From: an uncultured Bacteroidales bacterium
Lineage (GTDB): Bacteria; Bacteroidota; Bacteroidia; Bacteroidales; UBA932
Assembly (NCBI GenBank): GCA_944326265.1
Contig: CALVDE010000021.1
Coordinates: 1 to 43,283, forward strand
DNA: 43,283 nucleotides
Direction: 5' to 3'
A model generated the notes under the pieces. That model worked only from the letters and a program-made list of their open reading frames with translations. It did no database searches and was not told the origin of the DNA. Each line of letters begins with the position of its first letter. Positions within the stretch are counted from its first letter, which is position 1. Below are positions 42,895-43,283 of the stretch, piece by piece. The translations under genes were made by a program, and so were the position numbers.

Positions 42895-42936
42895 TAAAAA
42901 ACGGACAGATTCACATTATGACCGTAAATCTGTCCG
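42895..42936 (-). terminator. Terminator closing the 16S-tRNA-Ile-tRNA-Ala transcript
   Basis: Minus strand: CGGACAGATT (42936-42927) pairs perfectly with AATCTGTCCG (42911-42902) around a 15-nt loop, followed by TTTTTT (42901-42896). On the plus strand no T-run follows, so it acts on transcription coming from tRNA-Ala. It stands 28 nt after the tRNA, where a 23S leader would normally be. Confidence 0.88.
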
Positions 42937-42964
42937 CTGTCCTGTTGATGCCTTCCGGCTTCGG

Positions 42965-43038
42965 TGGAGAACAAGGGAGTCGAACCCTTGACCTCCTGCT
43001 TGCAAGGCAGGCGCTCTAGCCAACTGAGCTAGTCCCCC
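42965..43038 (-). tRNA. tRNA-Ala (anticodon TGC)
   Basis: A 74-nt cloverleaf with acceptor GGGGGAC/GTTCTCC (two G-U pairs), anticodon stem CCTGC/GCAGG around CTTGCAA, giving TGC, and A73. In bacteria this tRNA usually stands with tRNA-Ile(GAT) in the 16S-23S spacer; here no 23S follows. Confidence 0.95.
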
Positions 43039-43070
43039 AAAAAAATATTCAGTCCTCAAGGCACTGAATG

Positions 43071-43144
43071 TAGTCCCGAGCGGACTTGAACCGCTGACCC
43101 CTACATTATCAGTGTAGTGCTCTAACCAACTGAGCTACGGGACT
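43071..43144 (-). tRNA. tRNA-Ile (anticodon GAT)
   Basis: A 74-nt cloverleaf with acceptor AGTCCCG/CGGGACT, anticodon stem CTACA/TGTAG around CTGATAA, giving GAT, and A73. It lies about 75 nt behind the 16S 3' end and 32 nt before tRNA-Ala; that 32-nt gap holds a small hairpin. Confidence 0.95.
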
Positions 43145-43218
43145 GAATAATATACATAAAAAATAATAGCATCCGGGTGAAAAGGAGAGAAATAATCTCA
43201 AACCGATCGGAAAGCTCC

Positions 43219-43283
43219 AAAAAGGAGGTGTTCCAGCCACACCTTCCGGTACGGCTACCTTGTTACGACTTAGCCCCAGTTAC
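43219..43283 (-). rRNA. 16S ribosomal RNA, 3' end (partial)
   Basis: The minus strand ends GTAACAAGGTAGCCGTACCG, then GAAGGTGTGGCTGGAACACCTCCTTT, the universal 16S 3' segment containing the anti-Shine-Dalgarno CCTCC. The GGAACACCTCC form (A where E. coli has T) is typical of Bacteroidota. The exact mature 3' end is uncertain by a few bases (43219-43221). The rest of the gene lies beyond the window edge. Confidence 0.96.

Follow-up and report, generated by a model that had tools for sequence, protein, structure and literature searches.

The window, i.e. the whole 43,283-base stretch of DNA analysed here, is a complete contig (C21) of a 24-contig draft genome (2.36 Mb, 99.4% complete) from a Candidatus Coprenecus-like gut bacterium of the Bacteroidales. 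NCBI places Candidatus Coprenecus in Rikenellaceae incertae sedis; in GTDB, the family name is UBA932. At its right end, read on the minus strand, the window carries the end of a 16S rRNA gene followed by tRNA-Ile(GAT), tRNA-Ala(TGC), a terminator and the mutL operon:

43221..43283, minus strand: last 63 nt of the 16S rRNA gene (Rfam RF00177, 58.6 bits, model positions 1471-1533)
43145..43220, minus strand: 16S trailer, which would form the 3' side of a long processing stem, with the 16S leader on contig C18 as the 5' side (duplex energy)
43070..43144, minus strand: tRNA-Ile(GAT) (ARAGORN, Rfam; only copy found in the assembly)
42963..43038, minus strand: tRNA-Ala(TGC) (ARAGORN, Rfam; only copy found in the assembly)
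42896..42936, minus strand: intrinsic terminator closing the 16S-Ile-Ala unit (sequence, fold z -6.3)
42865..42894, minus strand: candidate promoter of the mutL operon, resembling the Bacteroidota type, TTGG-N18-TAATTTTG (recognised by eye)
42513..42842, minus strand: 109-aa ORF opening the mutL operon, no Pfam match (homologue before mutL in all eight related loci examined)
40692..42503, minus strand: mutL, adjoining the rRNA unit but outside it (Pfam DNA_mis_repair and MutL_C)

The 16S gene is cut on its 5' side by the contig end, its remainder lying beyond the window, and the other contig ends lead us to infer that the window stops at a 77-base assembler overlap. The terminator consists of perfect 10-bp arms (42936-42927 and 42911-42902) followed by six T at 42901-42896, and folds at -23.3 kcal/mol, against a mean of -7.99 for shuffled sequences, none of 200 shuffles being equal or better. 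Terminator-like hairpins with a T-run were also seen, by eye, 3' of tRNA-Ala in most relatives. Neither a 23S nor a 5S gene was detected above the Rfam threshold within the window. A sequence-only reading of this DNA had described a 16S-Ile-Ala unit that ends in a terminator with no 23S or 5S behind it, and this description is upheld by Rfam, ARAGORN and the fold statistics.

The 231 bases spanning the Ala-terminator-mutL junction are single-copy in the genome; the six further matches to this query are partial, 73-86% identical, and all located at other tRNA genes. A plasmid search with the 16S-Ile-Ala stretch returned short partial matches, none reaching 80% query coverage. Of the tRNA-Ala-terminator-mutL junction singled out in the sequence-only reading, the Ile-Ala part without 23S does recur among relatives (see below), but the mutL neighbour does not: no related locus that we read shows mutL next to the Ala-terminator junction, and the upstream neighbours of mutL differ from those of the window in all eight related loci examined. 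As the genes 3' of tRNA-Ala vary between species, there is probably no fixed association of mutL with the rRNA unit, and a neighbouring gene as the cause of the arrangement was considered and rejected on the same ground. The gene at 35599-37084 of the window is found upstream of the mutL operon and on the same strand in genome G012, while it is located here behind the operon and in the opposite orientation. This points to a local rearrangement of the mutL region next to the rRNA unit in the window's genome. A search of viral contigs for MutL confirmed nothing.

Ribosomal RNA genes elsewhere in the genome

The genome search returned one 23S and one 5S gene, both on contig C24 (3,234 bases). Searches with the Rfam 16S family missed even the 63-nt piece of the window, and their negatives carry little weight. 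Contig ends are more informative. Contigs C18 and C1 end in an identical stretch of 77 bases, corresponding to the 16S start and the nearest part of its leader, and are different upstream of it. On C24, the 23S end shares 77 bases with C12, and the 5S end shares 77 bases with both C8 and C2, which diverge from each other beyond them. Overlaps of this kind are what a short-read assembler produces at a repeat, so that there are two 16S starts and two 5S ends, which imply two 16S and two 23S-5S copies in this genome. We infer that they correspond to one split pair and one linked operon, as the contig ends close with a single missing contig, one that would join a 16S gene to C24 as an ordinary spacer does. 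No contig joining 16S to 23S was found in the genus among the limited number of candidates that our searches scored. A linked operon is directly visible in the complete genome CP006772.1 (see below); for the window's genome, it is deduced from the contig ends.

The two 16S leaders pair very unequally with the trailer in the window: the predicted duplex reaches -60.5 kcal/mol for the C18 leader and -31.5 kcal/mol for the C1 leader, while 24 shuffled trailers give a mean of -28.2 kcal/mol (sd 4.3, best -39.9). It is therefore very likely that C18 carries the 5' side of the window's 16S unit and that the orphan transcript has a complete 16S stem, through which it would be processed. This control is not strict, in that leaders from sister species form duplexes of almost equal strength with the trailer in the window (-58.9 for G017). 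Own partners are nevertheless the best ones for the leaders of G008 and CP006772.1 and for the trailer of G017, while the G013 trailer prefers the G017 leader (-64.0, against -59.0 for its own). The leader of the linked copies in CP006772.1 pairs best with the linked spacer (-46.4) and reaches -38.1 with the window's trailer.

Upstream of the 23S, C12 carries an oligopeptide-transporter gene (Pfam OPT) and not a 16S, and a Bacteroidota-type promoter motif and a hairpin-like start (CCCGTTTGAGAAAAACGG) are located immediately 5' of the 23S leader. Each half appears to have its own promoter. As for tRNA genes, 42 matches were obtained in the genome, six of them in the window. The remaining 36 are covered by 32 stretches, in which ARAGORN names 35 tRNAs (one of them Ala(GGC)); none of these 35 is Ile(GAT) or Ala(TGC), and a weak match on C4 is left unnamed by ARAGORN. 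It is unlikely that the missing spacer contig carries a second Ile-Ala pair, because the linked spacers of CP006772.1 are free of tRNAs.

Split units in related genomes

The clearest view of the arrangement comes from CP006772.1 (G027), the complete genome (2,657,245 bases) of Bacteroidales bacterium CF, a member of the same family. It has three 16S genes, at 428995, 546479 and 1153494, and three 23S genes, at 539752, 548300 and 1155315. The 16S gene at 428995-430518 is full length and is followed by tRNA-Ile, tRNA-Ala and a terminator, with no 23S in the 2.5 kb read behind; the next 23S, 109 kb away, is the one starting at 539752, which has its own promoter and no 16S partner. The two other 16S-23S pairs are linked, with spacers in which ARAGORN detects no tRNA. 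Between orphan and linked copies, eight of 1524 positions differ in 16S and four of 2876 in 23S. Another single-contig genome, G021, contains two linked 16S-23S pairs and neither an orphan 16S nor an orphan 23S, its Ile-Ala pair standing alone. There, a promoter immediately precedes Ile-Ala, behind the chromate-transporter genes that also accompany the orphan unit, and 16S is absent (L103, 3498-5043); this locus is likely a relic of an orphan 16S unit which has lost its 16S.

Within the genus, Ile-Ala with no 23S or 5S behind it was found in 11 of the 19 genomes, including the window's own, i.e. in ten of 18 relatives. On the contigs of these ten relatives, neither 23S nor 5S was detected in 374,850 of 375,121 bases, whereas the same search was positive at two control loci; 23S genes in relatives were located by DNA query with the window genome's own 23S-5S contig. 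The 16S end is also present on eight of the 11 Ile-Ala contigs, those of G003, G006 and G011 starting at or before tRNA-Ile, without 16S. For the other eight genomes of the genus, no contig carrying both tRNAs was obtained, and we counted them as draft gaps rather than contrary cases. The arrangement extends to other genera of the family: Ile-Ala has no 23S within 5.0-5.5 kb behind it in G026, G029 and G033. Both halves are present on the same 16.5 kb contig in G028, on the same strand and about 15 kb apart (with only the last bases of 16S), and tRNA-Ala and 23S are located at opposite ends of a 54.5 kb contig in G031, again on the same strand. A chromate-transporter gene precedes the orphan 16S both in the window's genome (C18) and in CP006772.1, and this side seems more constant than the genes behind tRNA-Ala. 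The tRNA content of the unit shows some variation, with two tandem tRNA-Ala(TGC) copies after tRNA-Ile in L111 (G026:C21) and L122 (G004:C9), and a unit that stops after tRNA-Ile, without tRNA-Ala, in L108 (G032:C2).

The promoter and leader of the 23S half, with no 16S match in the 3.8-6.6 kb upstream, were found in 14 of the 19 genomes of the genus (including the window's own); the other five gave no orphan-23S contig, which we again attribute to draft gaps and do not count as contrary evidence. Eight of the 14 contigs continue into 23S, and six stop within the leader, like C12. Upstream neighbours vary, from OPT in the window's genome to an M20 peptidase (G001), a GLAA-B/beta-helix protein (G017:C7) and a C69 peptidase (CP006772.1). 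A scan of named genomes with the motif yielded 50 loci, all of which carry TTTG-N15-21-TANNTTTG; among 10,000 background windows, one shows this pattern. For at least 13 of the loci, the contig or genome is also part of our comparison set, and the two counts are thus not independent. None of the 50 has a 16S in the available flanking sequence, 45 of them with at least 1,500 bases upstream. A 23S follows the motif at 26 loci; of the 24 others, 23 end within 208 bases of the motif. The single exception among the 50 is L217, whose sequence extends 308 bases past motif and leader with no 23S that could be recognised. The exact motif occurs in three of 393 genomes drawn across the order (including the window's own), namely in three of six genomes of the family and in none of the 387 others. 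It is narrow: in G032, a genome of the family, a variant of it accompanies the orphan 23S. A whole orphan 23S is present on G029:C151. In G017, two contigs carry the orphan-23S promoter, L104 (G017:C49) and L088 (G017:C7), corresponding either to two orphan 23S genes or to a mixed bin.

Explanations for the arrangement

We consider it very probable that one rRNA operon of this lineage was split after tRNA-Ala into two separate halves, while one or more linked operons were also kept. One half would consist of promoter, leader, 16S, tRNA-Ile, tRNA-Ala and terminator, its 5' part being on C18 and its 3' end in the window; the other would consist of promoter, leader, 23S, 5S and terminator, on C12 and C24. 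Each half would be transcribed from its own Bacteroidota-type promoter, terminated and processed separately, so that producing the RNAs of both ribosomal subunits would not require a shared transcript. The window's genome would retain one or more ordinary 16S-23S-5S operons devoid of spacer tRNAs. The orphan 16S unit is probably retained because it holds the only tRNA-Ile(GAT) and tRNA-Ala(TGC) found in the assembly.

The sequence-only reading had raised the alternative of an assembly joint at a collapsed rRNA repeat, in which case the real genome would have a 23S after tRNA-Ala and the join to mutL would be false. In favour of it, the contig does end inside a 16S repeat, and mutL has other upstream neighbours in all eight related loci examined. 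However, the junction sequence is single-copy, the 23S is preceded by its own promoter and, further upstream, by non-rRNA sequence, and the 16S-Ile-Ala unit without 23S recurs beside different genes in other assemblies and in the complete CP006772.1. These observations contradict an artefact, which we regard as extremely improbable. The unlinking of 16S and 23S proposed in the same reading is therefore real for this pair, but probably does not apply to all rRNA genes, as the contig ends reveal one more copy each of 16S and of 23S-5S, and such copies are linked in CP006772.1. A fully unlinked genome, with these second copies also lying apart, would account for the lack of a joining contig among the limited candidates scored in the genus, and for the two contigs with a 23S-type promoter (C7 and C49) in G017. 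Against it, the bin of G017 may be mixed, a single absent spacer contig is enough to close the contig ends, and two comparisons made by eye favour a linked copy: the second type of 16S leader (on C1 and G017:C5) resembles the linked-operon leader of CP006772.1, and the start of C24 coincides with the point from which the orphan leader resembles the linked spacer of CP006772.1. Full unlinking is thus quite unlikely. The same reading also named a partial extra copy beside complete operons; the locus would be one half of a split extra operon, the contig ends indicating second copies that probably form a linked operon in this genome.

A different question is whether the orphan 16S still matters for ribosome supply, or is a passive leftover kept for its two tRNAs alone. 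The latter would fit with the fact that no other Ile(GAT) or Ala(TGC) gene was identified in the assembly, and with G021, where the promoter stands directly before Ile-Ala behind the same chromate-transporter genes and the 16S is absent. It is rather doubtful, however, given that the orphan 16S of CP006772.1 is full length and, like the orphan 23S, has diverged little from its linked counterpart, and that leader-trailer pairing is kept though both arms differ between species, the own partner being the best one in G008 and CP006772.1. The locus does not look like a decayed leftover, because both halves are conserved with their control elements, and the 16S half with its processing stem. More speculatively, the split may represent a stable regulatory layout at the family level: after a single cut behind the spacer tRNAs, both halves would have gained related promoters, and the supply of 16S plus tRNAs and that of 23S-5S would since have been tuned separately, the attachment of the tRNA pair to the orphan 16S acting as the force that maintains the arrangement. 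We regard this extended scenario as unlikely in its entirety.

Relation to known unlinked rRNA genes

In Thermus and Rickettsiales, 16S and 23S genes also occur as orphan halves located apart, and lineages of this kind are often fully unlinked. The same separation of 16S and 23S is found in these two groups and in Planctomycetes, but the case reported here differs in that linked operons are kept in the complete relative CP006772.1. Brewer et al. 2020 reportedly described unlinked rRNA genes, including genomes of mixed type. CP006772.1 resembles the latter, with over 1,500 bp between 16S and 23S and linked copies kept, whereas the present split concerns Bacteroidales, lies 3' of the spacer tRNAs, leaving them attached to the orphan 16S, and is common to several genera of a family. 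An ordinary 16S-Ile-Ala-23S operon, of which G048:C11 is a linked example from the order, has the same gene order up to tRNA-Ala; here, a terminator follows tRNA-Ala, and the 23S is located elsewhere behind its own promoter. The criterion of more than 1,500 bp between 16S and 23S, and the term mixed type for genomes with linked and unlinked copies, appear in an extract of PMC8178347, which also reports unlinked rRNA genes as undetected in the human gut; separate locations of 16S and 23S in Planctomycetes are mentioned in an extract of PMC7825169.

Titles and abstract openings in the literature searched, which covers few subscription journals, contain no description of a split rRNA operon in Bacteroidales. 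Unlinked rRNA genes as such are known; as far as these searches show, the new elements are the lineage, the position of the cut after the spacer tRNAs and the spread over several genera of a family. Orphan copies are missed by amplicon surveys that span 16S, spacer and 23S. Many of the Bacteroidales with a split pair come from animal guts according to their record titles, and a split pair as a lineage trait in such bacteria contrasts with the gut non-detection stated in the extract of PMC8178347. The coexistence of several states within one family, with linked and split copies together in CP006772.1 and the orphan 16S apparently lost from G021, offers a way to study why rRNA genes are linked in operons and how a split operon is maintained. 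Finally, a genome from another family of the order (G052) shows 16S and tRNA-Ile followed by a terminator-like hairpin on L034 (G052:C5), and tRNA-Ala and 23S on a separate contig, L061 (G052:C88), behind a promoter-like site and with a run of N between tRNA-Ala and 23S. This is perhaps an independent split at another point of the operon.
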